A stretch of 31,378 nucleotides of DNA, taken from positions 1 through 31,378 of the IMG/VR virus record IMGVR_UViG_3300025711_000024; one strand, given 5' to 3'. The notes beneath the pieces are model-generated. The model did no database searches. It worked only from the letters and a program-made list of their open reading frames with translations, and was not told the origin of the DNA. This DNA comes from a virus. The first letter of the stretch is position 1. Each line of letters opens with the position of its first letter. The translations under genes were made by a program, and so were the position numbers. Shown piece after piece: positions 102 to 31,322 of this stretch.

Positions 102-113
102 TTTTTTAAGGCG

Positions 114-127
114 ACTGAGAAGTCGCC
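114..127. repeat. attL core (14-bp direct repeat)
   Basis: ACTGAGAAGTCGCC here is identical to 31252-31265; the bases immediately outside the 14-bp match differ on both sides. One copy flanks the rph end and the other flanks pyrE next to the integrase gene, as expected for attL and attR of an integrated phage. The core lies in a perfect hairpin GGCGACT-GAGA-AGTCGCC (110-127). In the empty site this hairpin would have been followed by the T-run now found at 31266-31271. Confidence 0.9.
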
Positions 128-200
128 CTAAAACCGTTTCAGTGTGTTGAAATAAAAGGATTTATTTCTAGCGATGTCCACATCGTGACCATGTCGACTT

Positions 201-229
201 AAAAGCCCCGCTATCCGTGGGGCTTTTTT
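201..229 (+). terminator. Rho-independent terminator just inside attL
   Basis: The stem AAAAGCCCC / GGGGCTTTT (201-209 with 219-227) has a 9-base loop and runs into a T-tract. It lies about 100 bases after rph and before the accessory gene at 317. It should stop transcription arriving from rph and insulate the prophage; together with the 31-kb insert it ends any rph-pyrE co-transcript. Confidence 0.8.
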
Positions 230-316
230 ATCGAAACAATTTGAAATAACTAAAATGTCGATGGCAAGATGCCTAGCGTAAACAGATATACGTGAGTAAC
301 AAAGGGATAACTAAAT

Positions 317-826
317 ATGGCAATAACAAAGTGCAAGGAATGTAAAAAAGAAGTGTCTAGCAAAGCCAAGGTCTGCCCGCATTGCGGCGTCAAAGACCCA
401 GGCTTTAACGCTATGGATGCGGTGAAAGGGTTAGTCTTTTTGGCAATTCTGGGCAGTATTGGTTATTGGTATTTCAGCGGCGATGACGACGCTGCCATTA
501 AAGAACCCGCAAAAGCGAAAGTATGTGCAGCCAATGACGGGCAGTGTGTCTTTGATGCTCATTTAGTTGATGCGCTGGTCGCTTGTAAGACGCCAATCCA
601 AGAGCGTTCAAAATATGATTACGAATGGACGAACGGCACTTTTGAGAATATTTTCAGTCGTTACATCAATCAGCCCGATAAGCATCAAATCATCTACATG
701 GGCGACAAACTGAAATTTACCAACGGCTTTAATGCCAAGTTAAATATGACTTACTCATGTACTTTCGACACGAAAAGCAATCAAGCCGTTGACTATAAAG
801 TGACTGAGGGCCGCTTACCTAAGTGA
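317..826 (+). CDS. Membrane-anchored zinc-ribbon accessory protein
   Basis: A 169-residue protein with three visible parts. Residues 1-25 form a short zinc ribbon with Cys6, Cys9, Cys20 and Cys23 (CxxC...CPHCG). Residues about 36-53 are a hydrophobic membrane segment (GLVFLAILGSIGYWYF). Residues 54-169 are a polar domain with four cysteines that could form disulfides if it faces the periplasm. It has its own frame and strand, opposite to the tail operon, and lies between attL and the tail genes behind a terminator. This is the position of lysogenic-conversion or superinfection-exclusion cargo in this phage group. An AAGGG sequence lies about 10 bases before the ATG. The fold type is clear but the function is not; a host-envelope role is inference. 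Confidence 0.75.
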   Translation: MAITKCKECKKEVSSKAKVCPHCGVKDPGFNAMDAVKGLVFLAILGSIGYWYFSGDDDAAIKEPAKAKVCAANDGQCVFDAHLVDALVACKTPIQERSKYDYEWTNGTFENIFSRYINQPDKHQIIYMGDKLKFTNGFNAKLNMTYSCTFDTKSNQAVDYKVTEGRLPK

Positions 827-1325
827 TCCTTTTGCGCAGTGGTTTGCAAAAATCGCTGCGCCGCATATATTCACACCAGCCCTTGCGCCGCAAGGCTTCC
901 CGCAATTTTCCCCACTTGCCAGAATTCTATTCCCTCACTGTTTTGATCCAGACGGAAAGCAAAGAGATCCAAATAAAAACAATCACTTAATCAGATGGTT
1001 AGCAGGCCGTAACCTGCTGAGTTTTGCAAAGCGCTGCAAAAGCTTGCGCAGTGTGCAATCGCAGCTCATGCGCAGAACCCCAGACACCGCGCGGGCTGGC
1101 GGGGTGGTTTGCACAAAATTTCTTTTGCAAAATTTTTGCGATCCAAATCGTGCAGGCGGGTGCGGTGTAGCGCCGTTTCCGTCTGGTATGCGCTTCCGTG
1201 TGCGGGTTTCTGCTGCGGCTGTGGGGCGTGGCTGGACGAACGAACAGAAGGCCGAACGGTGTCGGCCTTTGGGTACTGCGTTCAATGGTGGGCGTTACAG
1301 ATCGTTTTACACGATGAGGATAAAA
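827..1325. other. Gene-free repeat-rich region, candidate cos
   Basis: About 500 bases without a convincing gene; the open frames here have no family resemblance or good ribosome sites. It contains a perfect dyad CCTTGCG-C-CGCAAGG (881-895), a hairpin AGCAGG/CCTGCT (1001-1018), direct repeats TTGCGCAGTG (832-841, 1044-1053) and GATCCAAAT (966-974, 1140-1148), several TTTTGCAAA motifs, and GGCTGGCGGGG at 1094-1104. In HP1-type genomes cos lies between the end of the tail operon and attP, exactly here. In P2 cos is beyond the portal gene, but here the portal runs straight into the ogr gene and a terminator, leaving no room. A cos function is inferred. Confidence 0.5.
1248..1269 (-). terminator. 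Probable terminator of the tail operon
   Basis: The stem AAGGCCGA / TCGGCCTT (1248-1255 with 1262-1269) with a 6-base loop lies 57 bases beyond the stop of the last leftward tail gene. The leftward strand downstream of the stem is only moderately T-rich (CTGTTCGTTCG), so it may be a weak or Rho-assisted stop. No gene reads through this stem. Confidence 0.55.
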
Positions 1326-3026
1326 TCAGGCTATCAGCGGAGCATATTTCTTGCGAAGTGTATCGGTTTTACCGGCGATCGTAGTGAACTGACCAGACTG
1401 CTGGCTTGCACCGGTGCTGGGGTGGGTATGGCTGGCGACAAGCGTCGCCAGTTCGTTGACGACCGTCAGCGTATCGGTCAGCAAGGTGAGGACGTTAATT
1501 TCGTCGGTACCCAGTTTCACCACGGGCGCAATCAGCTGTTGCGCCTGGGCGACGCTGCGGCGTATACCGGTGATTTTCTCGGTGAGCGTGCCCCCGACCG
1601 AAATCGAAGCATTGCCGGTGATGTTGTCGTCCAGATTGCCCCCGACCGCGCGGTTGGCATCTTTACCGCATGACAGGGTCATATTGCCCGATGTGCCGAT
1701 GCTGTAATCCCCCTCGCTGACATGAACAACGGCACCCGCCAGAAGGGTGGCCGTACCCAGTACGATGGTTTTATCCGTGGCCTGGACGGTGGTTTCGCGG
1801 GCTACCAGCGTGCGGGTTTCATCGTCGGCTGTGATTATCCGACTCATGGAGATTTCGCGGATGGTCTGGTCTGTCTGGCGTTCCCAGTCACCGGCGACGG
1901 TCACGCGCTGCGATACGCCGTCACGCTGTTGTTGCAGCTGTTCACCTGGCTTAACCGATGGCAGGTTTTGCCCCTGTGGCATACTTTGGCGCACGAACGG
2001 CTTGTCCGGGCGGCCATCGGTAAAGCCCACTTCCACCAGCGTGCCGGGCGGCGGAAATTGAAACATCCCGGATTCGCTTCCGGCCATCGGTACCGGTAGC
2101 GGCACGGCGGGATAAACCGGCGTATCGACTGCGGGGTTACCGTCTGCGTCAAGCAGCTGCAAATCGACGGCGTAGCGAGGGCGGAATGGGTCGGCAATAT
2201 TTCCACTGCTGACGTCTTCACTCGGCGCCTCTACCCTGGCGAATTTTGGCAGATGCAGCCCGGAGGCGAGTTCCGGGAACGCGCCTTCTACCTGGCGTTG
2301 TACCGGCGTTTTTTGCAATGCCTGGCCGGTGGCTTTGTTGCGTGGTTGCCAGAAAATCGCCATATCGTCGTTATCAAGACGCACCTGATTCAGCCGCTGG
2401 CCGTTCACCTCGGCGCCGGGGCGTAAACTTTGGATCATGGGAACGGTCATGGAGTTGCCGCCCGCCGTTGCCTGGCTAAATTCACCGGGAATTTCTACCG
2501 GCTTACCCGCAAACATGCTGTGCTGGGCTGCGCCAACAAAGACGGCGCCGTCCGGCAGCTGGTACCAGAGGTAATCCGTGATGGAGAACGCACGGCCCAG
2601 ATTTGCAAAAAGCTGGTACCCGGTGCCGCTGTGGGTGAAGTGGGGGATCGGCTTATCGGCATAGGCGGCGCCTGTCGGCGGTGCAACCGTTAACCCGCTC
2701 TGTTCACTAATCCAATCAGTAATCTGTCGAAGGGTCGGATGCTGGAATGAGCACGGCCACGGCTTATCAAAAATACCGATGAGTTCACGGACGAAAAGTC
2801 TTTGCGTGCCGTTCTCTGCGGGCTGCGACCTGACGACGTAACCGGTAAACCAGCGCAGGACAAGCCCGTCGTAGCCAATGTCTAAGCGCACCATTTTGCC
2901 GGTGTAATCATTATCAGTTTGGGCCGTGATAAATCCCCGACCGCACGCATTTATCTCGAGCATCAGAGTGACGTCGACCAGGTGCACGGTATCACTGGAA
3001 AGGTACAGGCGTTTTATTGGTTTCAT
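1326..3026 (-). CDS. Fused baseplate hub and spike protein (gpD-gpV-like)
   Basis: At 566 residues this is a VgrG-like fusion of two proteins that are separate in P2. The N-terminal part (about 1-230) has the tail-hub (gpD/gp27-like) character. Residues about 270-355 look like the OB-fold of gpV/gp5, with YPAVPLPVPMAGSESGMFQF and GTLVEVGFTDGRPDKPF. The segment from about 380 to 530 is a repetitive beta-rich stretch, as in a trimeric spike needle. Near the end is SHTHP, an HxH pattern like the iron-binding tip of P2 gpV. It is the last gene of the leftward tail operon, starting 7 bases after the stop of its neighbour. It would form the central cell-puncturing part of the baseplate. Confidence 0.8.
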   Translation of the reverse strand: MKPIKRLYLSSDTVHLVDVTLMLEINACGRGFITAQTDNDYTGKMVRLDIGYDGLVLRWFTGYVVRSQPAENGTQRLFVRELIGIFDKPWPCSFQHPTLRQITDWISEQSGLTVAPPTGAAYADKPIPHFTHSGTGYQLFANLGRAFSITDYLWYQLPDGAVFVGAAQHSMFAGKPVEIPGEFSQATAGGNSMTVPMIQSLRPGAEVNGQRLNQVRLDNDDMAIFWQPRNKATGQALQKTPVQRQVEGAFPELASGLHLPKFARVEAPSEDVSSGNIADPFRPRYAVDLQLLDADGNPAVDTPVYPAVPLPVPMAGSESGMFQFPPPGTLVEVGFTDGRPDKPFVRQSMPQGQNLPSVKPGEQLQQQRDGVSQRVTVAGDWERQTDQTIREISMSRIITADDETRTLVARETTVQATDKTIVLGTATLLAGAVVHVSEGDYSIGTSGNMTLSCGKDANRAVGGNLDDNITGNASISVGGTLTEKITGIRRSVAQAQQLIAPVVKLGTDEINVLTLLTDTLTVVNELATLVASHTHPSTGASQQSGQFTTIAGKTDTLRKKYAPLIA

Positions 3027-3033
3027 GGCTCAG

Positions 3034-3576
3034 TTATCCCAGGGCATCATTCACAGGTTTTAAAACTTTCTGTTCAAACCAACTCATTTTGTCTTTGTCT
3101 TCATCTGCGGATGCCGAACCGTTCGCCCCTGCTACGCCGGTTTGCTTCGTGCTGGCCGTGGCGTTCGCCTTTCGTGCCTGGCGTTTTTCCGGGACGCTGC
3201 CTTTTTCGCGCAGGGTGAAACTGACCTGCCAGGCGAGAATGTCTTCCTGCGGTGTGGCATCAATTTGGCCGGTGAATGTGCCTTCGCGAAAGTTGATGGC
3301 CGTCGCCGTTTCGTTGGCGATTCGGTACGTTTTGAGGGCGCCGCTGGATTCGGTCGCCGAGGCAATTTGAAAAAGTCGCTGTAACACGGTCTGATTGTCG
3401 AAGGTGATCAGACCGGAGACGCGCAGCTCTTTGGCTTTAATACCTTGTTCGGCATTGGCCGTGCTGGACGTCTGCCCCGACTGGTCTTTTTCCTGAAACT
3501 GCATCGACGGCGAAACCAGCATGTTTTGCATCGCAATGCCTTCCCCATCAAGGGCGAGTAGCGCGGTCTGGCTCAT
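3034..3576 (-). CDS. Baseplate-associated protein next to hub
   Basis: 180 residues. The middle (about 50-130) is beta-rich and regular (KELRVSGLITF, FREGTFTGQIDATPQEDILAWQVSFTLREK). It is followed by a low-complexity tail rich in Ala, Ser and Lys, then a short amphipathic end. GGAGAAAATGTTAC before the ATG gives a ribosome site, and the first 29 bases overlap the upstream gene. Its place directly before the hub gene matches small baseplate or hub-adaptor proteins of HP1-type tails, perhaps the counterpart of P2 gpU. That role is inferred from position and I cannot assign a family with certainty. Confidence 0.6.
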   Translation of the reverse strand: MSQTALLALDGEGIAMQNMLVSPSMQFQEKDQSGQTSSTANAEQGIKAKELRVSGLITFDNQTVLQRLFQIASATESSGALKTYRIANETATAINFREGTFTGQIDATPQEDILAWQVSFTLREKGSVPEKRQARKANATASTKQTGVAGANGSASADEDKDKMSWFEQKVLKPVNDALG

Positions 3577-4273
3577 GTAACATTTTCTCCAAATCGGCCA
3601 GGGAATCCCCGGTGAACATCATGGCGGCGGTATGCACGGCGGTAGTGAGCGGAATGTTTTTTAATATCTCGACGGCGCCGGTGTTGTGATTTCCGCTATG
3701 GGTAAAGGCCCACACTTTCGCGCTGGCTCCTTTGAGTTCTTCCAGTCCCTGACTCACGGCGGATAACAATCCGGCGCGGGCCTGGACAAAACCGGCCAGC
3801 TGTTGTTTCAATCCTGCTGTACTGCTGGTAACGGCGGCGGCCAGCTGCGCGGCGGCGACGCGCTGGGCGTTCACGGCGGCTCTGTTCGTCGGTACAGAAA
3901 GAGGCGCAGCGGCGGGCAGGGCGTTGGCTACTTTGGCAGGCAGCTGCATTTTTACGGCGCTTAACTCGGCAGCGGCTTTCGCCATTCTGCTGACCTGGGT
4001 AAATGCGGGCGCAGGAAAAACGGTGGCGAGACTGCTTAGTCCCTGCATAAATGCGTCATGCGTATTCTCGGCAATCATCAGGACGATCACATCGCCATTG
4101 CCCCCGCTGGATGCCAGTTTTTTTGCGAGGTAGCCCAGCGCATTGGCCGGGCTGAGATAACCGCCTGAGTCTGCCGATTGCCCCAGTCCATAAACCCACG
4201 GGTGCGCGGGTACCACGGCGCAGGACAGCGCTGCCATATCATCAGCTATCTGGATAATCGACTCTCGCCACAT
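3548..4273 (-). CDS. Tail/baseplate protein of unknown role
   Basis: 241 residues, in the late operon between the tail-fibre chaperone and the hub-adaptor gene. It starts with TAATG stop-start overlap with the chaperone gene and so is probably translationally coupled. Residues about 90-180 are strongly Ala-rich and likely helical; the ends are mixed. There is no signal peptide or obvious catalytic motif. The position is conserved in HP1-type tail modules as I understand them, suggesting a structural or assembly role. I do not recognise a named family. Confidence 0.6.
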   Translation of the reverse strand: MWRESIIQIADDMAALSCAVVPAHPWVYGLGQSADSGGYLSPANALGYLAKKLASSGGNGDVIVLMIAENTHDAFMQGLSSLATVFPAPAFTQVSRMAKAAAELSAVKMQLPAKVANALPAAAPLSVPTNRAAVNAQRVAAAQLAAAVTSSTAGLKQQLAGFVQARAGLLSAVSQGLEELKGASAKVWAFTHSGNHNTGAVEILKNIPLTTAVHTAAMMFTGDSLADLEKMLHEPDRATRP

Positions 4274-4785
4274 TACTGCGGTACCTCCGGCCAGGTGATA
4301 TCCGGTGCGGTCGATAAATCCAGGCGGTTAAGAGCAACACGGTATTTTTTCCAGGCTTTAAGCGCCGCCAGTTCGTCATCTGTTGCATCGTCAACGTCAA
4401 CGGCATCCTGTAGCGGTGTAATGGCCGTGTTGGCTTCGGCCAAAAGAGCATTGCGCTTAGCCGTCGCCTGCTCGATCAATTCATCGGATGTATATGTACG
4501 GCGAAAGATTTTTTTCCCATCAAACGCCCAATCACCATTAATGTCTAAACCAGCGGGTACTTTTGATACTTCGGACACCGAATTACCGACCGGCCAAAGT
4601 CTTGACACATCATAATCGAACGAAATGATGATGCCGTTTTCATCAAATACAAACTTAAGCGTTTTTTTACCGAAATTAGCTTGTGATTCATACCAATCCA
4701 AACCCGATTCGTCTTTTAAAAACAAAATTGATGAACCCGCAATCATCTTTGAATCGTAAAGTTGAAAATTCTTTAGAGTAATCAT
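4273..4785 (-). CDS. Tail fibre assembly chaperone
   Basis: 170 residues from the start MITLKNFQLY, whose ATG shares one base with the TAA stop of the tail fibre gene (TAATG). The C-terminal half, ending in YTSDELIEQATAKRNALLAEA and then a predicted helix and TWPEVPQ, is the typical Caudo_TAP tail-fibre assembly chaperone region. Such proteins help the distal fibre trimerise and are specific to its C-terminus. The N-terminal two thirds (DNA about 4490-4785) is visibly more AT-rich than the flanking tail genes, while the C-terminal third looks like the rest of the operon. This pattern suggests recombination together with the fibre tip. An earlier ATG at 4809 is open but would overlap the fibre gene and has no homology support. 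Confidence 0.85.
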   Translation of the reverse strand: MITLKNFQLYDSKMIAGSSILFLKDESGLDWYESQANFGKKTLKFVFDENGIIISFDYDVSRLWPVGNSVSEVSKVPAGLDINGDWAFDGKKIFRRTYTSDELIEQATAKRNALLAEANTAITPLQDAVDVDDATDDELAALKAWKKYRVALNRLDLSTAPDITWPEVPQ

Positions 4786-7583
4786 TATGCAAGGCCTATT
4801 GTCATCCAATTTCCGTTAATACAAACCTGCTCTGCGGCATAGAGAAGTCCCATATGCGCTACGTCAGAACTCCCGTTATTTCGGGCACCTATCACTACGC
4901 AGCCCGCTGGTACCTGCAAACCGCCCCCGACACCCCCAGACCATTGGGCGGAAGCTTGACGCTGCCCAGTAACAAAACTCTGACGGCACCAGTTGTAAAT
5001 ATCATTGCGTAAATCGCTATTCGCCCAATTGCGAGTTCCTGCAATTTCGTTTTGTAACTGCTCTCTGGTGGGCAGGACAACAACGGCATTGCTTGTTGAG
5101 TGACGCATATACGGGTCATTTGCATTGCCTGAAACAAATCCCGCTACGCTACACACATCTCGCGCGATGGCGTTTATAGCGTCCGGTGTTGGTTTGTAAT
5201 TTGAGCTATAAGCTCGCACTGCCCCACCTGATTCGTACAAGCCTTGCCCCGCTACAACATTCCCTCCGGGGGCTGAGAATGTCCCGTCAGTAGGGTCAAA
5301 AAACCATTGCCGTGAAATGCCGCTGTCACCGATAACGTGAATGACAGCCTGCGCAAATTTGGCTGTACCAGAGGTTACAGCACCAAAACTTACCGCCGTG
5401 CCATAGCCATGGGTTGCGGTTTGCACGAGTCCTTTAATGATAGGCAGGTAATTACTGACACCTGCGGGGGCTTGGTAACCTATCGGGATAACGAATGGTG
5501 CTACCGGGTTGGTATATTGAGCGGCAAACCCACCCGCACCTTCCCATGTACCCTTCTTAATGCCGTAGTGAGCGGCGTTGTTCAAATATGCAACATCGCC
5601 GCCAGCCGTAGGAACCGCCCCGACATCTGACGGACTCGGTTTGTTTGCCTGGCAATAAATTTCATTCCAGCCAGACCAGGGGCCATCTATGCCGTTCCAT
5701 GCTCCGGTGGCGTATCGGGTGAACTGCCGCCCGTTACTGTTAAAGGCAATTTGCTGCGTGGCATTCGGCCCCCAGGTAACGAAAATAACCCCGACAAAAC
5801 CATTCATCGGATAGCCTTTTTCCGTCGTTGCTGCCGCAACGCCTGGCACGCCGTAATGCCCAAACATGGCACTGCCGCGAAGCGTGTTTGGTGAATCCGT
5901 CGCCGTTAAGTTTTCGCGAATTTTAAACGCCTTGGCGATTTCATCGGCCAACGCTTTTTCACTGGCGGCGCTTTGCGCTGCCGTCCATGCTCCTACGTCT
6001 GCGGCTGTCGGTTTATTGTTAGCGCTGTAGGTTGGCACCCAGTCTTTCCATGGACCATCTACGCCGTTCCAGTCACCGGACAATCCGCGATTCCAGATAT
6101 TGCCGGTGAAAGTCACGTACATCTGCTGGCATCCGTAGGCGCTCGGCGTCACATACAGCGTCCCGGCAATAGCCTGCGGATAATGCAGCGCGGCGTTCGC
6201 GTTCACATTTTTAGGCTGCGAATAAATCGCCGTGCCTGAAATGCCGCTGGCAAAACCCAGCGTATTGATATCGGTGGTTGTCAAAATAGCCGTGGGTACG
6301 TTGACGGAATTGACCGCGCTTATTTGCACCCATTCACGCCATGGTCCATCGCTGCCATTCCAGGAGGCGTTCAGGGCACGCGTCCACACCATCCCGGTAT
6401 TTTGTACGGTGTAACGCTGCAAAACTCCGCCCGTCCAGGAGGCGGGGATCACCTCCAACACTCCCGCCGCCTGCGAACCTGCCGGATAGCCATTCGCTAC
6501 CGTGGCATTTGCGCCCGTGCTTTGTACATAAACACCAATATTTGCCAGATTCAGTGTGTTGATATTTGTCGTACCCAGCACGGCGGATGCTACAGGCAGC
6601 GCCCCGATGTCTGCGGCAGTCAGGTCAAAATCATTCGATAGGGCTTTCTTATTGATTTTGCGAGTTTTCGGCACGCCGTTTAAATTATTCAGCGCTATGG
6701 CTGGATCAGCGATATCGGTGAGGTTTTTATCCCTGCGCAGATATTGGCTGCTGCCCTTTGGACGTAAGTCTGTGATAACGCCGTTCGCGTCAATACTCGC
6801 CAGGGCAAAGACATAGTGCGCGATGCCGTTGGTGGTGTAGTCGGCAAGCGTGGCCGCGACGGTGAATTTAATGTCCGTTTTAAACGCGCTGGTCAGCGTG
6901 CCCTGGTAGCTGACGTCTGCCCAGACTTTGGTCGGCTTTGCCGACACGGCAACGTTTTGATTTGCCGCCAGCGCCGCGCGAAGCCCTCCTATGTACCCTA
7001 AACCCTTGGTCACAAAATACTGGGTGCCGGTTTTTGCCACTAAAAAGCCGTTATCAAAAAACGCACCGGCGCCGTAAATATCCAGCGCGTTCAGGCGATC
7101 GGCTTCATCCATCCCGGCCAGGCGGGCGGTAAAATCAATCTGCCACGTCTCTGCCGGGGTGGTGATGCTCGTCGCTGTCTGTGCGCCGCTGTATTCCATC
7201 AGCATTGAGCGCACCAGAACGTTGCCCTGTTGGCCGCTGGCATTTTTGACTTTGCGCTGCGTCGGGGCGTGAATAATCATGGCGAGCGTGCCGCTGGCCT
7301 TATTAACCAGCCCAATCCAATTGAAGTCGAAATCCCCCACGTCGGCGCCCAGCGTGACCGAATACACCACGGAGTTGGTATTCACTACACCGGTTTTGCC
7401 CACGGCCTGACGATAAACAATCTTATCGGCGGCGGGGATGCCTTCGGTGTTGCTGATAGGTTTTGTAACGTCCAGACCCGGCACGTTCGCAAAAATAAAT
7501 TCGTCGAGCGTGACGGCTTTATTATCGACCGCTTGCTGCGCTTTCCACTGAGTAAACGCTTTGGTAATGACCGCTTGTGACAT
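4785..7583 (-). CDS. Tail fibre protein (gpH-like)
   Basis: 932 residues. The N-terminal about 280 residues (MSQAVITKAFTQWKAQQAV..., FDFNWIGLV) match the phage tail-fibre N-terminal family (DUF3751 type) that attaches to the baseplate. Then come three pyocin-knob-like repeats, each closing with a W-N-G-x-D-G-P-W motif at residues about 411, 508 and 631. Linkers of the type NKPTAADVGA separate them. The distal part ends GNWMTIGLA, a fibre-tip style end. It should bind the host receptor and sets host range. A GGGGAAT sequence precedes the ATG, which lies 9 bases after the gpI-like gene. The tip and its chaperone are likely exchanged as a unit. Confidence 0.88.
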   Translation of the reverse strand: MSQAVITKAFTQWKAQQAVDNKAVTLDEFIFANVPGLDVTKPISNTEGIPAADKIVYRQAVGKTGVVNTNSVVYSVTLGADVGDFDFNWIGLVNKASGTLAMIIHAPTQRKVKNASGQQGNVLVRSMLMEYSGAQTATSITTPAETWQIDFTARLAGMDEADRLNALDIYGAGAFFDNGFLVAKTGTQYFVTKGLGYIGGLRAALAANQNVAVSAKPTKVWADVSYQGTLTSAFKTDIKFTVAATLADYTTNGIAHYVFALASIDANGVITDLRPKGSSQYLRRDKNLTDIADPAIALNNLNGVPKTRKINKKALSNDFDLTAADIGALPVASAVLGTTNINTLNLANIGVYVQSTGANATVANGYPAGSQAAGVLEVIPASWTGGVLQRYTVQNTGMVWTRALNASWNGSDGPWREWVQISAVNSVNVPTAILTTTDINTLGFASGISGTAIYSQPKNVNANAALHYPQAIAGTLYVTPSAYGCQQMYVTFTGNIWNRGLSGDWNGVDGPWKDWVPTYSANNKPTAADVGAWTAAQSAASEKALADEIAKAFKIRENLTATDSPNTLRGSAMFGHYGVPGVAAATTEKGYPMNGFVGVIFVTWGPNATQQIAFNSNGRQFTRYATGAWNGIDGPWSGWNEIYCQANKPSPSDVGAVPTAGGDVAYLNNAAHYGIKKGTWEGAGGFAAQYTNPVAPFVIPIGYQAPAGVSNYLPIIKGLVQTATHGYGTAVSFGAVTSGTAKFAQAVIHVIGDSGISRQWFFDPTDGTFSAPGGNVVAGQGLYESGGAVRAYSSNYKPTPDAINAIARDVCSVAGFVSGNANDPYMRHSTSNAVVVLPTREQLQNEIAGTRNWANSDLRNDIYNWCRQSFVTGQRQASAQWSGGVGGGLQVPAGCVVIGARNNGSSDVAHMGLLYAAEQVCINGNWMTIGLA

Positions 7584-7592
7584 GTTATTCCC

Positions 7593-8183
7593 CTACAAAC
7601 TCGCGCTATACGTTGCGCTTAATTCGGTGTTGATGTCGCCCAGGCTGGCTGGGTAACAAATATATTCACCCTGATACCAACCGATGTTGATATGCAGGGG
7701 CAGCGAGGTGATCACCTCAAACTGATAGCGTCGGCAGGTGCGGCCATATTTACGGATAATCTCTAAAAGAAGATCGCTGTTATCCGCAACCTGGCTATCA
7801 GTTACCCGCACGACGATGACGTCCCAGTCAAGCCCGTCCTGACGCTCCAGCAATTCGACATAGCCAATGCCCAGGCGGCTGAATATGGCGATAAACCCGG
7901 CAATCTCCCCGGCGTCTTGAGCATTGATAAAGGCGTAATTCACACGCTTGCGGTAGAGGCTCAACGGCTCCCCGTTAAACCGGGTGATGTCACGTTCCCA
8001 GGCAAGCAGGTTTAACAGCGGTTCGGCACAGGTGAGCGGGTCAAACTGTTTGAGCGGCCAGGTGACCCACTCGTAAACCTGTGACCAAAAGCGGACGCTT
8101 GCCCGGAGTAATTTCGCGGGTTCGCCTGCGTCCATCCATGACGGCAGTTTCAGGCTTTTAAGCTGGGTCAGGAAATCAGTCAT
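7593..8183 (-). CDS. I: Baseplate wedge protein (gpI-like)
   Basis: 196 residues, following gpJ with an 8-base overlap and preceding the tail fibre, the same order as J-I-H in P2. The sequence has the pattern of the P2 I / DUF2612-type tail protein, including NLLAWERDITRF and YRKRVNYAFINAQDAGE near the middle. It would link the wedge protein gpJ to the tail fibre at the rim of the baseplate. No membrane segment or enzyme motif is present. The assignment rests on order and general resemblance; the exact family is less sure. Confidence 0.75.
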   Translation of the reverse strand: MTDFLTQLKSLKLPSWMDAGEPAKLLRASVRFWSQVYEWVTWPLKQFDPLTCAEPLLNLLAWERDITRFNGEPLSLYRKRVNYAFINAQDAGEIAGFIAIFSRLGIGYVELLERQDGLDWDVIVVRVTDSQVADNSDLLLEIIRKYGRTCRRYQFEVITSLPLHINIGWYQGEYICYPASLGDINTELSATYSASL

Positions 8184-9360: not shown

Positions 9361-9688
9361 AGTTCATTCCCTGGCTAACCTGGCCGAAATCGTAGGTTTC
9401 AGCCGTGATGTAAAGGCGCGACAAGCTTTCTTCGGTGATCACAATCGTGCCGGGTATCAGGCGGGTGTCACTTTCTACCAGCAAGGTCAGCTGCGTGAGG
9501 ACGTCGCCGCGCATGGTCGGGCTGCGTTCGCCTATCAGTTTGGCGGTGATGCCGCTTTCTAAGATGCTGTGAATAATGTCCTGGCCGATGCTGACGCGGT
9601 TGTTGCACCGCTGCGGCTCGTTGCCGCTGTCGAGCGTGAAATCACGGCCAGTAATCAGCAAATCAATGTAAATCGGGGCGTCGCTCAT
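9353..9688 (-). CDS. DUF2590-family baseplate protein
   Basis: 111 residues from MSDAPIYIDLLITGRDFTLD. The sequence is that of the DUF2590 family found in HP1-type tails in the slot occupied by gpW (gp25-like) in P2. The region IGQDIIHSILESGITAKLIG followed by a beta-rich half fits a wedge component. The start at 9688 is chosen because its ATG overlaps the tape-measure stop as ATGA; an upstream ATG at 9709 is open but less likely. The gp25-like role is inferred from position. Confidence 0.8.
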   Translation of the reverse strand: MSDAPIYIDLLITGRDFTLDSGNEPQRCNNRVSIGQDIIHSILESGITAKLIGERSPTMRGDVLTQLTLLVESDTRLIPGTIVITEESLSRLYITAETYDFGQVSQGMNYD

Positions 9689-11982: not shown

Positions 11983-11983
11983 C

Positions 11984-13573: not shown

Positions 13574-13577
13574 TGCG

Positions 13578-17651: not shown

Positions 17652-17655
17652 CGCG

Positions 17656-22874: not shown

Positions 22875-22930
22875 GCGCAAATAAGCTAAAATCAGGCTCA
22901 TTATTGGCACTGGCGTGCGGGGGCGGAATC

Positions 22931-23197
22931 ATGCGCATCTTTAAAATTAATTGTCCTGAGTGTGGATCACCGGCCACCATTCGTAAATCGGACTGGAAAG
23001 ACAAGAAACTGGCGGATTTATACTGCGCCTGTTCAGAAGTTGAGTGCGGCCATACGTTCGTTTTTAACGCGACGTTCTCACACTCACTGAGTCCCAGCGG
23101 GCTGACCGGTAACAAGCTGGTCAAATTCCTGATTGACCAGCTGAAACCGGACGAACGTCAGTTCGCGTTGAACCTACTGTCCGGCCAGGCTGGATAA
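22931..23197 (+). CDS. ogr: Ogr/Delta-like late transcription activator
   Basis: 88 residues from MRIFKINCPECGSPATIRKS. The zinc finger has four cysteines in the family arrangement (CPECG and then YCACSEVECGHTF), close to P2 Ogr and P4 Delta, which activate late promoters through the RNA polymerase alpha subunit. A second in-frame ATG at 22871 overlaps the portal stop (ATGA) and could add 20 residues, possibly by translational coupling. I prefer the downstream start because Ogr proteins begin just before the first cysteine pair. In P2 this gene lies between tail gene D and int; here it is the third gene of the P-Q unit. Confidence 0.87.
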   Translation: MRIFKINCPECGSPATIRKSDWKDKKLADLYCACSEVECGHTFVFNATFSHSLSPSGLTGNKLVKFLIDQLKPDERQFALNLLSGQAG

Positions 23198-23200
23198 AAG

Positions 23201-23224
23201 AAACCCCGCTTAGGCGGGGTTTTT
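23201..23224. terminator. Bidirectional terminator between ogr and gene A
   Basis: The stem AAACCCCGC / GCGGGGTTT (23201-23209 with 23214-23222) has loop TTAG, with T-runs following on the rightward strand and A-runs flanking on the other side. It ends the rightward P-Q-ogr unit. The stop codon of leftward gene A (23210-23212) is read from the loop, so both convergent units use this stem. Confidence 0.85.
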
Positions 23225-25771: not shown

Positions 25772-26572
25772 CTAACCGGCAGCCTCAGAACTACCCATTG
25801 ATAAAAGCGGGATTGAACTCTGGTTCTCAATGGCATGAGCTACGGCGGATTTATCAGCGAAGAAATCCCCGATGCGTTTTGAAGTGGCCGAAAGGTTGAG
25901 CAACAAACCATAGAAAAAGGCGGCGGCTTCTTCGGTGTAAGGCATGGTTTGCGCGGTCATATGGGCGGGTGGCACCATGTGCGAAAAATCGTTAAGTCGG
26001 TGAGCAACGTTGTATTTTTGGCGGTCGCTAAATTTTTCCGACCGTGTCAAATGGACTTCTTTTTCAGTCACACCCCGCGCATTCTTATGTAGCTGTTTAA
26101 CGACGACTTTCGCATACAGACCCAGCGAGTAAATATTCCCAGAGTAACCAGAAAATCGGGCCGTTTTATTCCACTGGCCGTTATGGTCAGCATCGGCTGC
26201 ACTTCCATTGGCTGCAATCGTTCCGTCGCGGTTTTCCCACCAGTGGCAAGTCGTTTCAAAGAAATACGTAATAAACATCTGTTCTTCGATTTCGGTCGCG
26301 AGAATATTTTTAATCGCCTGGGTGATCGCATCCCTTGCGGCGGTCATGGTCATGGATGTGACTGTGTAACCCTCAATGCCTAACCCTCGCTTTTCGCGGA
26401 CTACATGAGCGAAAACTCCCGGTGGATTCAGAAGGAGTATTTGGTCGTGCAATTCCTCGTTGATGGTCAGCTCAAATTCCCCAGAATGCGCGTCAACCTT
26501 AGCCCGGCATGAAATGGCGTATTTGTCAGTTGCTGATTTCTCAAAAAATTTAACGTCTGGGAGTTTCGGCAT
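25772..26572 (-). CDS. Unrecognised early gene (266 aa) before gene A
   Basis: 266 residues starting MPKLPDVKFFEKSATDKYAI, with an ATG that shares a base with the previous stop (TAATG). Beta-rich start, then helical region about 85-110 (AARDAITQAIKNILATEIEE), then CHWWENRDGTIAANGSAADA, and a helical end (AAAFFYGLLLNLSATSKRIG). No signal peptide, membrane span or known catalytic motif. It forms a coupled unit with the 183-residue gene and gene A, so it is expressed with replication functions. P2 has gene B (helicase loader) here, but I see no Walker motif, so it is not simply a B homologue. Confidence 0.6.
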   Translation of the reverse strand: MPKLPDVKFFEKSATDKYAISCRAKVDAHSGEFELTINEELHDQILLLNPPGVFAHVVREKRGLGIEGYTVTSMTMTAARDAITQAIKNILATEIEEQMFITYFFETTCHWWENRDGTIAANGSAADADHNGQWNKTARFSGYSGNIYSLGLYAKVVVKQLHKNARGVTEKEVHLTRSEKFSDRQKYNVAHRLNDFSHMVPPAHMTAQTMPYTEEAAAFFYGLLLNLSATSKRIGDFFADKSAVAHAIENQSSIPLLSMGSSEAAG

Positions 26573-27123
26573 TATTCAGCCCCTTTATCGATATTTAAAA
26601 AAGCATGAATAAACGCCCTCTCAACATCCCTGTAATATTTCATTGGTTGAAATGTCCCATCAAACCAATAATTAGCGGAGGTTATATCGGGAATTGTTTC
26701 GAGTACTTCTGAAGGTGCGACGCGCTGGGGGTGGGAAATATGACTTTCTTTTTGAAATGCCTCCGCTATCCGCTGCTTTTCATCACGTTCTGAGGCCAGT
26801 TTTTTAACCGCTGCTATGGCGGTGACGGTCATTCGCTCTGCATCGGCAGCGTTGATAATGTCGGCGGTACCATCAGCACCCATGATCGCGAAAATCAGTG
26901 AATCCCAATGCACTTCATAACTGTTGGAAGCTGTAGCCAAATTTTGATTTTTGGCTGTTAACGCGGCAATCTCGCCCGCTTGATTAATAATGGTACGGCT
27001 TATTTCATTACAAAAGTGTCGAGCAGCGATACAACCAATAGGGGCTAGCCCCAGAGAAAGTTCTTTAATCAGCTCAACTGATTTCAGAGTGATACTTAAT
27101 TTAGCCTGTTTTGACGTCGTCAT
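26572..27123 (-). CDS. Unrecognised early gene (183 aa)
   Basis: 183 residues (MTTSKQAKLSITLKSVELIK...). Good ribosome site AAGGAACTAAATA before the ATG. A probable coiled-coil region spans about 45-65 (INQAGEIAALTAKNQNLA), then a helix about 90-125 (AADAERMTVTAIAAVKKLAS). The layout of N-terminal helix, coiled coil and small C-terminal domain is like variable accessory early proteins of lambdoid and P2 phages, but I cannot assign a family. Overlaps the next gene as TAATG. Confidence 0.55.
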   Translation of the reverse strand: MTTSKQAKLSITLKSVELIKELSLGLAPIGCIAARHFCNEISRTIINQAGEIAALTAKNQNLATASNSYEVHWDSLIFAIMGADGTADIINAADAERMTVTAIAAVKKLASERDEKQRIAEAFQKESHISHPQRVAPSEVLETIPDITSANYWFDGTFQPMKYYRDVERAFIHAFLNIDKGAE

Positions 27124-27197
27124 TATTTAGTTCCTTATGCTGTTTTTTAGATGCAGAAAGCCCGACGCAGTAGCGCCTGTTTAAAAAACTGGTTGGT

Positions 27198-27518
27198 TTA
27201 AATGTCTAGAATTCGGTCAGATGCCGAAATGTAATTAGGCAGTGAGCGGCCCCATTTGGACAGGCTGTTCATTGCGTCGATTATCATTTCCCGCTGGTAT
27301 TCGCTGAAATCTTCGAAAGGTTTTCCGATATCAGACGGGATGAATAGTTTGGGTGTACGGCGATTCGATAACGTCAACACAACGAATTTGAAATCATCAC
27401 TGGCCGTATTAAACCGGCGCAACGCAATATTTTCATGACGTTTAAAAAGCTTGCGGGCAGTTATCTGAAATTCTTTAAACGGTAACGGCGCAACATGCTG
27501 ATTATTTGGAACCTGCAT
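27198..27518 (-). CDS. Unrecognised early gene (106 aa)
   Basis: 106 residues (MQVPNNQHVAPLPFKEFQIT...). A basic N-terminal half (ARKLFKRHENIALRRF) is followed by a beta segment and an acidic helix ending near SKWGRSL. AGGGGGATTT before the ATG is an acceptable but short-spaced ribosome site. It is separated from the 183-residue gene by 74 bases. No family recognised. Confidence 0.5.
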   Translation of the reverse strand: MQVPNNQHVAPLPFKEFQITARKLFKRHENIALRRFNTASDDFKFVVLTLSNRRTPKLFIPSDIGKPFEDFSEYQREMIIDAMNSLSKWGRSLPNYISASDRILDI

Positions 27519-27537
27519 AAATCCCCCTGCGAATTAA

Positions 27538-27759
27538 CTACGCGAAAATACCCATCAGTCTGGCGAACCAACGGCGTTTATTTCGTGGGCGGGACATGAA
27601 CGGCAGACGGCGACCGTTAACGAATTGCACGTCGGTGACTTTGGGCTGAAAAAAACGACCGTCCGGGGTTTCAATCCATCCGCGCTGGTGAGCGCGGTGC
27701 GTAACCTGCTGGCCGTGGGTCAGCATATTAGCCAGAGATGGGCACTGGATTGTTGTCAT
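27538..27759 (-). CDS. fil: Fil-like phage filamentation protein
   Basis: 73 residues from MTTIQCPSLANMLTHGQQVT. The sequence HRAHQRGWIETPDGRFFQPK followed by FVNGRRLPFM is the pattern of the Fil family (DUF2724) of P2-like phages, first known from phage 186, where expression makes cells filament. GAGG lies 7 bases before the ATG. A longer frame starting at 27819 overlaps the preceding gene and is not needed. A role in host cell division inhibition is from the family, not shown here. Confidence 0.72.
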   Translation of the reverse strand: MTTIQCPSLANMLTHGQQVTHRAHQRGWIETPDGRFFQPKVTDVQFVNGRRLPFMSRPRNKRRWFARLMGIFA

Positions 27760-27761
27760 GA

Positions 27762-28016
27762 TTAAGCCTCGTCGAAAATAATGGTGAAAGGTTCGGGCAT
27801 TTTGTGGGTCTTGCTCCAAAGTTCGGCTGTAGCGTTAAGTTTGATCGCTTCATTGCTTCCCGCATAAGCCGCAGCTCCGGCAATTTCTCGCAGCTTTTCA
27901 CAGGCCCAATAGATTTCGCTTTCTGAATGTGCCGGCGCTTTGGCGGTCGCAGCTAACTGGCGGCGTTCGTACATGTTCAGAACTCTGTTACCCGCTGCCA
28001 AAAATGGTGTACGCAT
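27762..28016 (-). CDS. Small early protein, function unknown
   Basis: 84 residues from MRTPFLAAGNRVLNMYERRQ. GGAG lies 6 bases before the ATG at 28016; the frame is open to 28088 but without a better start. Residues 30-65 look helical (SEIYWACEKLREIAGAAAYA). It is followed by the Fil-like gene after 2 bases. Its N-terminal sequence has the look of small P2/186 early proteins, but I cannot name a family. Confidence 0.55.
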   Translation of the reverse strand: MRTPFLAAGNRVLNMYERRQLAATAKAPAHSESEIYWACEKLREIAGAAAYAGSNEAIKLNATAELWSKTHKMPEPFTIIFDEA

Positions 28017-28154
28017 GCTGATCTCCATCAAATTGAAAGGGTGCCGGGGTACAGCTCCACGCCCGGCGCGTGCCCCCTGTGATAACATCGCTATACCTGT
28101 GAAACTTTGAGCAGTGAATCAGGCGCAACATTTACCAACACAGAAGGAGTTGTA

Positions 28155-28634
28155 ATGAAATTCAATGTATTTTTTAAAAAAGACCATGGAGCACATTGGG
28201 TGCTTTCGAATGGATCAGCGATATTTGAAAGCTTTTTATTTAAAACAATGACAGATGCTATGGATAACCTTGAGGAGTTTGTCACACTGATGCAGTCACC
28301 AGTACTCAGTGGCTCTGATGAATTGGTCAATTTTGGAGAGACAAAAACTAGCCCATCAGCATTAGTCATATTTAAACAAAAGAGCACGCGCTGGTACTGG
28401 GATTTATTTATCTCAACAGGCGCGAAATTATCTAAAGTTGCTGAATGCTCAGATAAAGGCTTTGACTCATTAGAACAGGCAAGACAAAAAGCAAAGTCTT
28501 TGTGTGATTCCATTGTTAAAGCTCCAATTTTAGATTGGGCAAACGTCGCCATACCAGGGTGCAATTTTTCAAAAACCTTTGAGAATGAACATCACATAAA
28601 GGATATTCACCCCTCCAGTAAGTGGATTAAATAA
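28155..28634 (+). CDS. AT-rich reverse-oriented cargo gene, YegP/DUF1508-like
   Basis: 159 residues from MKFNVFFKKDHGAHWVLSNG, with strong ribosome site AAGGAG five bases before the ATG. It runs rightward against the surrounding leftward early genes and ends in its own terminator, so it looks like an inserted accessory (moron) gene. Two similar units are visible: WVLSNGSAIFESFLFKTMTD then A-M-D-N-L-E-E-F-V, and WYWDLFISTGAKLSKVAECS then DSLEQARQKAKSL. This is a tandem WY...GA...F-x-S-x-E-x-A pattern that recalls DUF1508 (YegP). The antisense frame is open but lacks a ribosome site. AT-rich compared with the early genes. Function unknown. Confidence 0.7.
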   Translation: MKFNVFFKKDHGAHWVLSNGSAIFESFLFKTMTDAMDNLEEFVTLMQSPVLSGSDELVNFGETKTSPSALVIFKQKSTRWYWDLFISTGAKLSKVAECSDKGFDSLEQARQKAKSLCDSIVKAPILDWANVAIPGCNFSKTFENEHHIKDIHPSSKWIK

Positions 28635-28661
28635 CCCCATTAGTCAGGGGTTATTGTTTTT
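28630..28661 (+). terminator. Terminator between convergent cargo gene and early gene
   Basis: The stem AATAACCCC / GGGGTTATT (28630-28638 with 28647-28655) is followed by G and a T-run. The stop codons of both the rightward cargo gene (28632-28634) and the leftward 115-residue gene (28640-28642) lie in it. On the leftward strand the T-run is weaker, so early transcription may pass partly. Confidence 0.8.
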
Positions 28662-28987
28662 CTAGTGCGGGATGGTATATCTCGCACTGTTTCTTCATCC
28701 ACAATCAATTCATAAATCTTAATGCCACTGTCACTTTCTGAAATGTCACTGAAAACCTGCATCATGAAATTCATGAACTGCTCATATGATACGGAGGGTG
28801 AAATATAACCAGTTGTAACCTCCAGCAATGGTGTTAGCCCTGAGTTATCATTTATTGAAATGCAATTCAGCTTATCCAAACGGAAAAAATAATTTCCGCA
28901 AGGTGTTCTTTTATCCTTGATGCGGATAAATACGTTTGATAACCCTTTGGGATCATCTGAGAGTTTAAAAATTTCAGCAGTCTTCAT
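28640..28987 (-). CDS. Unrecognised early gene (115 aa)
   Basis: 115 residues (MKTAEIFKLSDDPKGLSNVF...). Start overlaps the preceding stop as ATGA. The first 55 residues look beta-rich (FIRIKDKRTPCGNYFFRLDK), followed by a helix (YEQFMNFMMQVFSDI), and an acidic end. DNA is AT-rich like the neighbouring cargo gene. It ends inside the terminator. Coupled to the 97-residue gene and cox. No family recognised. Confidence 0.5.
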   Translation of the reverse strand: MKTAEIFKLSDDPKGLSNVFIRIKDKRTPCGNYFFRLDKLNCISINDNSGLTPLLEVTTGYISPSVSYEQFMNFMMQVFSDISESDSGIKIYELIVDEETVRDIPSRTRKTITPD

Positions 28988-29277
28988 TTTATCCTCGGTT
29001 CATTCAGTTTTTTCCATTCATTAAGTTGCCGCTGAGTTACGCCACGTACTGGGTTAATAACAACGGCCCCAATTACCTTAAAAGCGACCTTACTTTTATA
29101 AAGCGCATCTATGTACCCAGTCGCCTGGGCCTGCGCGTCGAATAACCCGAAAGATTGCTCGCCGAGTGTGACCTCATAGCGGGCAATCTTGCTGATAACC
29201 GTTTTCGGGCGGCGAGTAATTAAGAAGCCGCGGTAAATTGATGAATGACGGCTTATTTCTTTGATGGCGTGGGTCAT
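28984..29277 (-). CDS. Unrecognised early gene (97 aa) after cox
   Basis: 97 residues (MTHAIKEISRHSSIYRGFLI...), basic, ATGA overlap with the cox stop and with the next gene. It has a short beta pair (GFLITRRPKTVISKIARYEV then TLGEQSFGLF) and a helix (DAQAQATGYIDALYKSKVAF). The end VTQRQLNEWKKLNEPRIK is helical. The position right after cox is that of early regulators or replication accessories in P2-type phages. No family recognised. Confidence 0.55.
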   Translation of the reverse strand: MTHAIKEISRHSSIYRGFLITRRPKTVISKIARYEVTLGEQSFGLFDAQAQATGYIDALYKSKVAFKVIGAVVINPVRGVTQRQLNEWKKLNEPRIK

Positions 29278-29684
29278 GCCGCTGCCCCTTGTGCTTTCGC
29301 ATTGCGAGGTTTCTTCTGCCTACCTGCTGATAAGCGGTCTTTCCACCCATGCCATTCAGCTGGTGCACTTTCCACCAGCTGGGCGGCGTACTTGTCCCAC
29401 TCTTTGCGGTTAACCCAAAGTTCTGCTTGTCCGCCAGGTTTCGAAGGGTCAACCATGTAAAACGCTGGCAACTTCCCAGCCTTAGCCATGCAAACCACAG
29501 CGTTCGGTGTCTTGCCTACATACAGCGCAAAACCTTCTTTTGACAGTAGGTCAGAAGGCGTTGTCGCCAGTTTGATGGCATCAAGCTTGCGTAGTGAAGG
29601 GGCACGATTGACTTCGGATCTAGCCTCAAGCTCGAGGCTTTCTTCTTCTGCTAAGAGTTCTAGAATTTTTTCCTCATCTTGCAT
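29274..29684 (-). CDS. cox: Cox-like excisionase and regulator
   Basis: 136 residues from MQDEEKILELLAEEESLELE with GGAGG eight bases before the ATG. From about residue 50 the sequence matches P2 Cox: FALYVGKTPNAVVCMAKAGK then L-P-A-F-Y-M-V-D-P, and AELWVNRKEWDKYAAQ. The winged-helix part GKTPNAVVCMAKAGKLP is the DNA-reading helix region. P2 Cox is 91 residues, so this one has an acidic 45-residue N-terminal extension. Cox represses the lysogenic promoter and directs excision. It is first in the early operon, with two downstream genes coupled by ATGA overlaps. The basic tail (RQKKPRNAKAQG) is also extra. Confidence 0.85.
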   Translation of the reverse strand: MQDEEKILELLAEEESLELEARSEVNRAPSLRKLDAIKLATTPSDLLSKEGFALYVGKTPNAVVCMAKAGKLPAFYMVDPSKPGGQAELWVNRKEWDKYAAQLVESAPAEWHGWKDRLSAGRQKKPRNAKAQGAAA

Positions 29685-29715
29685 TCTGCTATCCTCCAGG
29701 CTGGTACCCGATTTT

Positions 29716-29743
29716 CTAACTGGCACTAATTGGAGCTAGTTGG
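29716..29743. promoter_or_regulatory. Three direct repeats spaced 10 bp, likely Cox sites
   Basis: CTAACTGG (29716-29723), CTAATTGG (29726-29733) and CTAGTTGG (29736-29743) fit CTA-R-Y-TGG at exactly 10-bp steps, one helical turn. They lie in the cox-C intergenic region on the side away from the early promoter and upstream of the expected lysogenic promoter. Related octamers with the same spacing occur near attP (31156-31183). In P2, Cox binds short repeats in both places, so these are probably its sites. Confidence 0.7.
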
Positions 29744-29755
29744 ATTTCATTCGGG

Positions 29756-29791
29756 TGTTAGTAATGCGATAAAATTATAGGATGCTAATAA
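29756..29791. promoter_or_regulatory. Candidate C repressor operators flanking the early -10
   Basis: Direct repeats TGTTAGTAA (29756-29764) and TGCTAATAA (29783-29791), seven of nine identical, lie on either side of the early promoter -10 (29774-29779). P2 C binds two direct-repeat half-sites around the early promoter in the same manner. Repressor binding here would block early transcription. Assignment is by position and resemblance only. Confidence 0.5.
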
Positions 29792-29800
29792 CAATGTCAA
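29774..29800 (-). promoter_or_regulatory. Early promoter Pe (leftward)
   Basis: On the leftward strand a perfect -35 TTGACA (29800-29795) and perfect -10 TATAAT (29779-29774) are separated by 15 bases. Transcription would start near 29767 and reach cox. The -35 overlaps the first codons of the C gene. The short spacer may lower basal strength. It faces the C and int transcript, as in P2. Confidence 0.7.
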
Positions 29801-30096
29801 CATACGATAGCCATGAGAAGTTAGCGCTCATTCGCGAATCTGAAAGGATGAATCGACGAGAGATGAGTCAACTACTTGATATTCCTTACAGTAGTTTGTC
29901 TAACTACGAATCAGGTCGAATGAAAATGTCATTTGAGGTAGGGGCTAAAATTTTCAAACACCCCAGATTTAGGAAATACCAAAATTGGTTTATGTATGAC
30001 GAGGTGGATCCAGCAGCCGGGCAAATCGCCCCGGTTCTCTCTCTTAGTGGGCAAGAGCAAATAATATCAGCCCAATCCGTAAAGAAATCTGGCTAA
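29794..30096 (+). CDS. C: C-type lysogeny repressor
   Basis: 100 residues from MSTYDSHEKLALIRESERMN, close to P2 C (99 residues). The helix-turn-helix is residues about 16-44 (MNRREMSQLLDIPYSSLSNY then E-S-G-R). The C-terminal part YQNWFMYDEVDPAAGQIAPV is strikingly like P2 C (WFM...PESGQIAPA). An in-frame ATG at 29782 would add four residues; 29794 aligns with P2 C and has AGGA 11 bases upstream. It should keep the early promoter off and maintain lysogeny. It is co-directional with int, suggesting one lysogenic transcript. Confidence 0.9.
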   Translation: MSTYDSHEKLALIRESERMNRREMSQLLDIPYSSLSNYESGRMKMSFEVGAKIFKHPRFRKYQNWFMYDEVDPAAGQIAPVLSLSGQEQIISAQSVKKSG

Positions 30097-30162
30097 CAGT
30101 ATATAAACTATACATTTTCACTATTTGTTACCAAGACGATATATTTGTCGGAGGGTCTTCTT

Positions 30163-31149
30163 ATGTCAATTAAGAAACTCGACGATGGTCGTTATGAAGT
30201 GGACGTCAGGCCGCAGGGTTCCGAGGGAAAGCGAATCAGGCGGAAATTTGGTACCAAGGGCGAGGCGCAAATTTACGAACGCCACATCCTGGTTAACTAT
30301 CACAATAAAGAATGGCTAGAAAAACCGGCAGACCGGCGAAAGCTGACTGACCTGTTGGATGTTTGGTGGCTACAGCATGGCAAGCATCACGTTCGTGGTG
30401 AAAAAGAGAGAGAGCGTTTAACTGCCATCATCAAGACGATGAAGGAATTAGGCTTGCAGCGAGCTGACCAGTTAACCGTTAAAGCGATTAAAGACTATCG
30501 GGTATACATGCTAAATCAGGGGTTGAAGGCTTCAAGTGTTAACCGGCACCTGGCGATTATGAGTGGTATGTTCACCAAGCTTATTGACGCAGGCGAGTAC
30601 CACAGTGAGCATCCTATCCGGGGTATCAAGGCATTCAAAGAGGGTGAATCGGAAATGTCATTTCTCACATCCAGAGAAATTGATACCTTGCTTGAGCTGC
30701 TTGATGGAGATGATCGGAAGGCCGCGTTGCTGTGTTTAGCGACCGGGGGCCGTTGGGGAGAGGTTGCTAACCTTAAGGGTGTGCACATTATTCAGGGGAA
30801 AGTGATGTTCATGAAGACGAAGAACGGCAAACGTCGAACTGTTCCGATATCCTCTGAGCTGGAAGCCTTGGTCAAAGGAGATAAAACAGGAATATTGCTT
30901 CACCCGGATTATGTTAGGGTGCGTACCACGTTGAAAGCAATGAAACCCGATTTGCCGATGGGGCAGGCTGTCCATGTATTGCGCCATACGTTCGCCACAC
31001 ATTTTATGATGAACGGCGGTAACATCATCACGCTCCAACGGATTTTAGGGCACGCGACCATACAGCAAACTATGACATATGCGCATTTTGCACCGGACTT
31101 TTTACAGGATGCAGTTGCGTTAAACCCGGTTGCCGGAGTGTCCATATAG
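30163..31149 (+). CDS. int: Tyrosine integrase
   Basis: 328 residues from MSIKKLDDGRYEVDVRPQGS, with GGAGG seven bases before the ATG; an upstream ATG at 30145 has no such site. The N-terminal arm-binding domain is followed by a core-binding domain (KASSVNRHLAIMSGMFTKLI). The catalytic residues are visible: Arg about 196 (GGRWGEV), Lys about 218 (KTKNGKRR), His-x-x-Arg-like LRHTFATH about 274, His in LGHATIQQT and Tyr about 305 (MTYAHF). It is next to attR, as expected. Related to P2 Int; its site here is the pyrE attenuator. Confidence 0.95.
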   Translation: MSIKKLDDGRYEVDVRPQGSEGKRIRRKFGTKGEAQIYERHILVNYHNKEWLEKPADRRKLTDLLDVWWLQHGKHHVRGEKERERLTAIIKTMKELGLQRADQLTVKAIKDYRVYMLNQGLKASSVNRHLAIMSGMFTKLIDAGEYHSEHPIRGIKAFKEGESEMSFLTSREIDTLLELLDGDDRKAALLCLATGGRWGEVANLKGVHIIQGKVMFMKTKNGKRRTVPISSELEALVKGDKTGILLHPDYVRVRTTLKAMKPDLPMGQAVHVLRHTFATHFMMNGGNIITLQRILGHATIQQTMTYAHFAPDFLQDAVALNPVAGVSI

Positions 31150-31155
31150 TGTCCA

Positions 31156-31203
31156 CCAACTAGCATTAATTAGCACCAATTAAACCTAATGCGATTAATT
31201 AAG
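31156..31203. promoter_or_regulatory. attP arm with 10-bp-phased Cox-like boxes
   Basis: Right after the integrase stop, octamers at exactly 10-bp steps read CCAACTAG (31156), TTAATTAG (31166), CCAATTAA (31176), then weaker CTAATGCG (31186) and TTAATTAA (31196). The first is the exact reverse complement of box CTAGTTGG at 29736, the next two differ at two or fewer positions from the box family. The sequence TAATGCGAT (31187-31195) is also found in the switch region (29762-29770). This is the place for Cox and integrase arm sites. Confidence 0.65.
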
Positions 31204-31222
31204 TGACTGTTTTAAAACAAAT

Positions 31223-31242
31223 AACCCCGTTGCGGCGGGGTT
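31223..31242 (+). terminator. Hairpin after integrase, weak terminator
   Basis: The stem AACCCCG / CGGGGTT (31223-31229 with 31236-31242) has loop TTGCGG. On the rightward strand it is followed by GTGTAGG and not a T-run, so termination of the C-int transcript may be incomplete. The leftward strand reads ATTTGTTTT after the stem, which is the better terminator direction. Confidence 0.6.
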
Positions 31243-31251
31243 GTGTAGGTC

Positions 31252-31265
31252 ACTGAGAAGTCGCC
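31252..31265. repeat. attR core (14-bp direct repeat)
   Basis: Second copy of ACTGAGAAGTCGCC, 102 bases after the integrase stop and 57 bases before the pyrE ATG. It is followed by the T-run TTTTTT (31266-31271). The left hairpin arm here is GGTCACT instead of GGCGACT, so the stem is interrupted by one mismatch and one G-T pair. Confidence 0.9.
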
Positions 31266-31322
31266 TTTTTTATGGCCTGCGGGCTGACAATAAGAAATAA
31301 GACGTTATAGAGGAGACCATCA

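Follow-up and report, generated by a model that had tools for sequence, protein, structure and literature searches.

A P2-like prophage between rph and pyrE

The window, i.e. the whole stretch of 31,378 nucleotides of viral DNA that was analysed, starts in the 3' end of rph, stops in the 5' end of pyrE, and holds between them a 31-kb element that we identify, from sequence alone, as a P2-like (Peduoviridae-type) temperate prophage (Table 1). PHROG matches within the window comprise an integrase, a Cox-like protein, a C-type regulator and a protein nicking at the origin (gpA-type replication protein), that is, the integration, switch and replication genes of a P2-type phage. The DNA is similar to that of Salmonella phages SW3 and SW5 and of Cronobacter phage ESSI-2. 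At the right end, the gene order is cox(-), C(+), int(+), followed by pyrE(+).

Two genes of the element are likely cargo. The first, just inside attL (317-826), encodes a protein of 169 aa that has a zinc-ribbon-like motif at its N-terminus and probably a membrane segment (PHROG 13160, function unknown). The second (28107-28634, + strand, 175 aa; PHROG 9021, function unknown) lies inside an early region that is otherwise on the - strand. A search of the whole window against Rfam gave no family match.

Table 1. Features of the window, and the other prophages occupying the same site (G325 is an uninfected genome).
Feature	Position	Strand	Evidence and remarks
rph (RNase PH), 3' end	1-101	+	TAA stop at 99-101; exact match in the G325 rph-pyrE junction
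attL hairpin GGCGACT-GAGA-AGTCGCC	110-127	+	Full stem, then CTAAAACC; sequence, folding
att core ACTGAGAAGTCGCC at attL, 14 bp	114-127	+	End-to-end repeat comparison
Phage bidirectional terminator	201-229	+	11-bp stem and T-run, about 75 nt inside attL; scan, folding
Cox-like excisionase/repressor	29274-29726	-	PHROG 1831 and PHROG 272; divergent from C
C-type repressor	29782-30096	+	PHROG 147 transcriptional regulator; opens the operon aimed at pyrE
Tyrosine integrase	30145-31149	+	71% identity to Escherichia phage pro483 integrase, 55% to P2 Int
Candidate substitute left arm GCGATT (31191-31196) and inner-stem arm AGTGAC (31202-31207)	31191-31207	+	RNA folding
G+C hairpin between int and core	31223-31242		Terminator-like on the - strand only
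att core ACTGAGAAGTCGCC at attR	31252-31265	+	Repeat comparison; adjacent left arm GGTCACT (31248-31254)
Host attenuator T-run TTTTTT	31266-31271	+	Now beside the broken stem; sequence
pyrE (orotate phosphoribosyltransferase), 5' end	31323-31378	+	ATG at 31323; G325 junction
Prophage of Erwinia psidii	L002, attL in L118		Related integrase, same site, same stem/T-run split, terminator after attL
Prophage of Yersinia pekkanenii	L003, attL in L121		Related integrase, same site, same split, terminator after attL
Viral contig L036	L036		Related integrase, same site
Prophage of G299	L249, attL in L261		Related integrase, same site, phage terminator after attL
Prophage of G414 (Serratia genus set)	L255		Related integrase, same site

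The attachment site lies within a terminator hairpin

The 14-bp ACTGAGAAGTCGCC is the sole exact repeat of at least 10 bases common to both ends of the window, and it corresponds to the right arm and loop of the hairpin, as a first-pass annotation of this DNA had proposed when it placed a prophage inside the rph-pyrE attenuator. That annotation had also claimed that joining the outer flanks rebuilds an empty site, with the stem and TTTTTT following the rph stop. Such a site exists: in the uninfected genome G325 the joined flanks are matched over 240 of 240 positions, uninterrupted and at 100% identity, and G325 carries window 1-127, window 31252-31378 and their exact join. Host DNA extends for merely 113 nt beyond the core on each side, as might be seen if the junctions resulted from an assembly chimera or a chance repeat. 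A chimera is already refuted by the exact empty site of G325; the coincidence of the att edges with the hairpin edges and the matching junctions of five other prophages (see below) also speak against this reading, which we regard as next to impossible.

The other two readings of the junctions were confirmed as well. At attL the stem is kept and the T-run is lost, because CTAAAACC comes next after the stem. At attR the T-run is kept, and the left arm GGTCACT gives a stem with a T.G wobble and a C/C mismatch (GGTCACT-GAGA-AGTCGCC-TTTTTT, 31248-31271). Folded in isolation, the hairpins of the rebuilt attB, attL and attR had energies of -12.9, -12.5 and -1.6 kcal/mol, respectively, and of -14.7, -13.0 and -6.2 kcal/mol with slightly more flanking sequence. 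In a terminator consensus scan the rebuilt empty site scored as a terminator; the attL hairpin was not called, and on the + strand of the window no terminator was found at attR or between int and pyrE. By scan and folding, an intact hairpin with its T-run is thus missing before pyrE in the lysogen, and the att core lies inside a hairpin that is terminator-like in the empty site. The two inverted core-type sites that the integrase uses are probably the halves of the hairpin dyad.

G325 belongs to one genus group with G258 and G382, whose integrases lie at positions that correspond to Rahnella bonaserana and R. woolbedingensis loci, which makes it probable that the host, as well as the uninfected genome, is Rahnella. 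The ends of the window give a further hint on its source: the stretch from position 1 through the left copy of the core and that from the first base of the right copy to position 31,378 are both exactly 127 nt long. A de Bruijn assembler with k=127 ends contigs in this way when host flanks branch at the core. The two distances therefore suggest a branch in a k=127 assembly graph and, from there, a lysogen and an empty site in one sample; the source would have held both chromosome states, or another element at the same site.

Among the rph-pyrE junctions read in a broad sample of Enterobacterales, nearly all had a hairpin and T-run right behind the rph stop, many of them with the same GGCGACTGAGAAGTCGCC, and the E. 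coli junction has both as well. The comparison with uninfected relatives proposed by the first-pass annotation thus found the hairpin where it was expected, and no att junction of the prophage fell elsewhere. Since a G+C hairpin and T-run between the rph stop and pyrE are present in the empty site and conserved at nearly all junctions, the attB of the prophage is, as judged from this conservation, the pyrE attenuator.

In E. coli, the site is seldom interrupted: in 5357 of the 5374 genomes that gave a match, a single place accounts for 80% or more of the junction query. Among the approximately 17 exceptions, the one that was opened, E. coli PEC399 (L246, 10940-11914), has the insertion sequence ISApl1 between rph and pyrE.

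Six prophages at the pyrE site, with two types of attR

Prophages at the pyrE site number six, in at least four genera that include Serratia, Erwinia and Yersinia (Table 1). In the integrase tree, a branch with support 72/99 has all six integrases on one side, next to a group of 13 rows whose site is pflA. A scan of viral contigs for the pyrE-start pattern gave no new prophage: L116 is the same as L036, L115 is an empty E. coli site, and L117 is a chance match. The attL of the G414 prophage was not found in the 18-54 kb of its contig that were examined. A search of the open-access literature, with subscription papers mostly outside its scope, returned no prior description of rph-pyrE as a phage site.

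The first-pass annotation had stated that both halves of the attenuator are altered at once. This is correct for the prophage of the window and fails as a rule for the site. The adjacent left arm at attR is broken in the window, L036, E. psidii and Y. pekkanenii. The attR of G299 and G414 retain GCGACT-NNNN-AGTCGC (a 6-bp hairpin) and the T-run, and are terminators by the same scan; in G299, GCGACTTGTTAGTCGCCTTT is common to attL and attR. Because the attR hairpin survives in these two relatives, breakage of the attenuator is a trait of the attP type of the window, not of the site. In the G299/G414 types, the stop codon is 78 nt from the core, and by analogy with E. coli K-12 rph-1 they are predicted to give low pyrE; the predicted effects of this type and of the window type on pyrE are opposite in sign.

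Transcription of pyrE in the lysogen

In E. coli, the UTP level sets how closely ribosomes on rph trail RNA polymerase, and the attenuation of pyrE is a textbook example of how translation is coupled to transcription. In a P2 lysogen, the C promoter drives C and int. The work of Bonekamp 1984 and Jensen 1993, as far as it is relayed in PMC2784333 and PMC6941894, describes UTP-modulated attenuation of pyrE and an effect of the distance between the rph stop and the hairpin on pyrE output; PMC2784333 links pyrE expression in E. coli to how far the stop codon lies from the attenuator.

What our analysis adds to the first-pass annotation is that pyrE is parted from the rph promoter and placed co-directionally downstream of C and int, that a terminator stands inside attL, with counterparts at attL of the E. 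psidii, Y. pekkanenii and G299 prophages, and that at least five other prophages use the site. The distance from the int stop to the core is 102 nt, as compared to 8 nt from the rph stop to the stem. Promoter searches of the window revealed none that was convincing upstream of C or between int and pyrE, and the source of pyrE mRNA is therefore inferred from P2 biology.

From this arrangement, rph transcripts would end at the phage terminator, and pyrE would be transcribed by polymerases reading on from C and int in the lysogen, which is the most likely state for the window. As long as the prophage is resident, pyrE transcription would no longer be coupled to rph translation in a UTP-dependent manner, given the weak attR hairpin and an int stop so much farther from the core than the rph stop is from the stem; excision would bring the coupling back. 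The regulation of pyrE and its response to UTP may plausibly change in the lysogen, and the separation of the operon probably outweighs the damage to the hairpin in its effect. Taken as a whole, the explanation that a P2-like phage integrates at the attenuator and feeds pyrE by C-int read-through, with UTP coupling lost until excision, is the one we consider probable.

The junction might instead be neutral for regulation, with enough pyrE supplied by a weak promoter at or close to attR, or by read-through from the host, and the attenuator being a mere conserved landing site, as tRNA genes are. Conservation of the site by itself accounts for its use as attB, and terminators inside attL insulate the phage. 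However, no promoter-like site was seen near attR in the window, L036, L002 or L255, and 31 kb of DNA with a terminator separate pyrE from the rph promoter, which leaves neutrality as a rather unlikely explanation.

A possible substitute hairpin at attR

According to another alternative, phage sequence restores a functional terminator or attenuator at attR; attenuation of pyrE would then persist, or its expression would fall, perhaps under a new rule. In the window, GCGATT is predicted to pair with the core's AGTCGC, enclosing a nested stem (Table 1). Candidate arms were also found in L036 (GCGATTT) and E. psidii (GCGACTCT), where GCGACTCT/AGAGTCGC matches the phage's own core, and the pairing probability in RNA folding was 0.87-1.0 in the window, L036 and E. 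psidii. The G299 and G414 prophages, which keep the adjacent arm GCGACT and are called as terminators, point in the same direction. However, shuffled phage leaders equalled the substitute pairing in 6-10% of trials (10% for the window), the three cases are homologous and not independent, and in Y. pekkanenii the pairing was no better than chance. Given the shuffles and the homology, the phage-built arm is a weak lead only, and a rebuilt attenuator at attR seems unlikely. A leader peptide was also considered at this place (GTG ORF of 17 codons, stop within the core) and discarded, as a ribosome-binding site is not evident and the ORF lacks conservation in both L036 and E. psidii.

A lower level of pyrE in the lysogen is conceivable too, in view of the two relatives that keep the attR hairpin and of the nested substitute terminator that might form in the window. 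A broader proposal, which we find doubtful, is that the integrated prophage is a reversible pyrimidine switch: pyrE would escape UTP-coupled attenuation and belong to the C-int transcript, possibly with a substitute attenuator, excision would restore UTP control, and one lineage would have kept the attR hairpin while another broke it.

A sister group at pflA, and comparison with known systems

Returning to the reading we prefer, C-int read-through into pyrE, related phages at pflA (n=13 rows, many near-identical: L004-L009, L043, L044, L065, L248, L254, L257, L258) offer a comparison. In 13 of the 13 junctions read, the phage sequence after int gives PflA a new in-frame start. E. coli E94 carries cox(-), C(+), int(+) and pflA(+) one after another, the arrangement of the window with pflA instead of pyrE, and the annotated pflA start is in phage-side sequence right behind int. 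The new N-terminus amounts to some 20 residues, e.g. MTTDCITKNFPATEGERKSVT-GRIHS. Together, the pflA junctions and the genes aimed at pflA indicate that this integrase family runs its 3' edge into a host gene, so that seating just upstream of a host metabolic gene, with int aimed at that gene, is a habit of the family.

P2-like phages with an integrase of the pro483/D8/P24E6b type share with the window a closely related integrase (70.6-70.9% identical; about 71% over the full length), the same cox(-), C(+), int(+) order, and an int that abuts a host gene and points at it. Their attB is the 5' coding end of pflA, whereas that of the window is the pyrE attenuator; the former supply a new N-terminus, the latter a leader. 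Regulatory switch prophages interrupt a host gene or regulator, which may become whole again when they excise. The window would resemble them in a reversible parting of two pieces of one host control element. The empty site shares with the E. coli pyrE attenuator its location and the kind of hairpin, GGCGACT..AGTCGCC with T-run right after the rph stop; in the lysogen, by contrast, the stem is separated from the T-run, pyrE is no longer preceded by rph, and the closest gene stop upstream is that of int, 102 nt from the core. A parallel in geometry is offered by rph-1 and its delta-82 bp suppressors in E. coli K-12, in which an altered distance between stop and attenuator is thought to change pyrE expression (PMC2784333). 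Those are mutations within rph-pyrE, while the change in the window is made by a removable 31-kb prophage.

Changes in rph-pyrE are among the commonest adaptive mutations in laboratory evolution of E. coli K-12 (7 of 11 strains, PMC2784333). A temperate phage family that repeatedly lands in the attenuator and would swap the leader of a core biosynthetic gene amounts to a natural experiment. As a regulatory junction between phage and host, the pyrE site recurs and lends itself to testing: a lysogen, a cured strain and the two attP types, with the hairpin kept or broken, can be compared for how phages pay for integrating before a metabolic gene.

In Rahnella, four loci (L010, L011, L252 and L253) encode integrases 65% identical to that of the window, followed by a primase-like frame with a zinc-finger-like start, which suggests P4-type satellites using the same integrase family.
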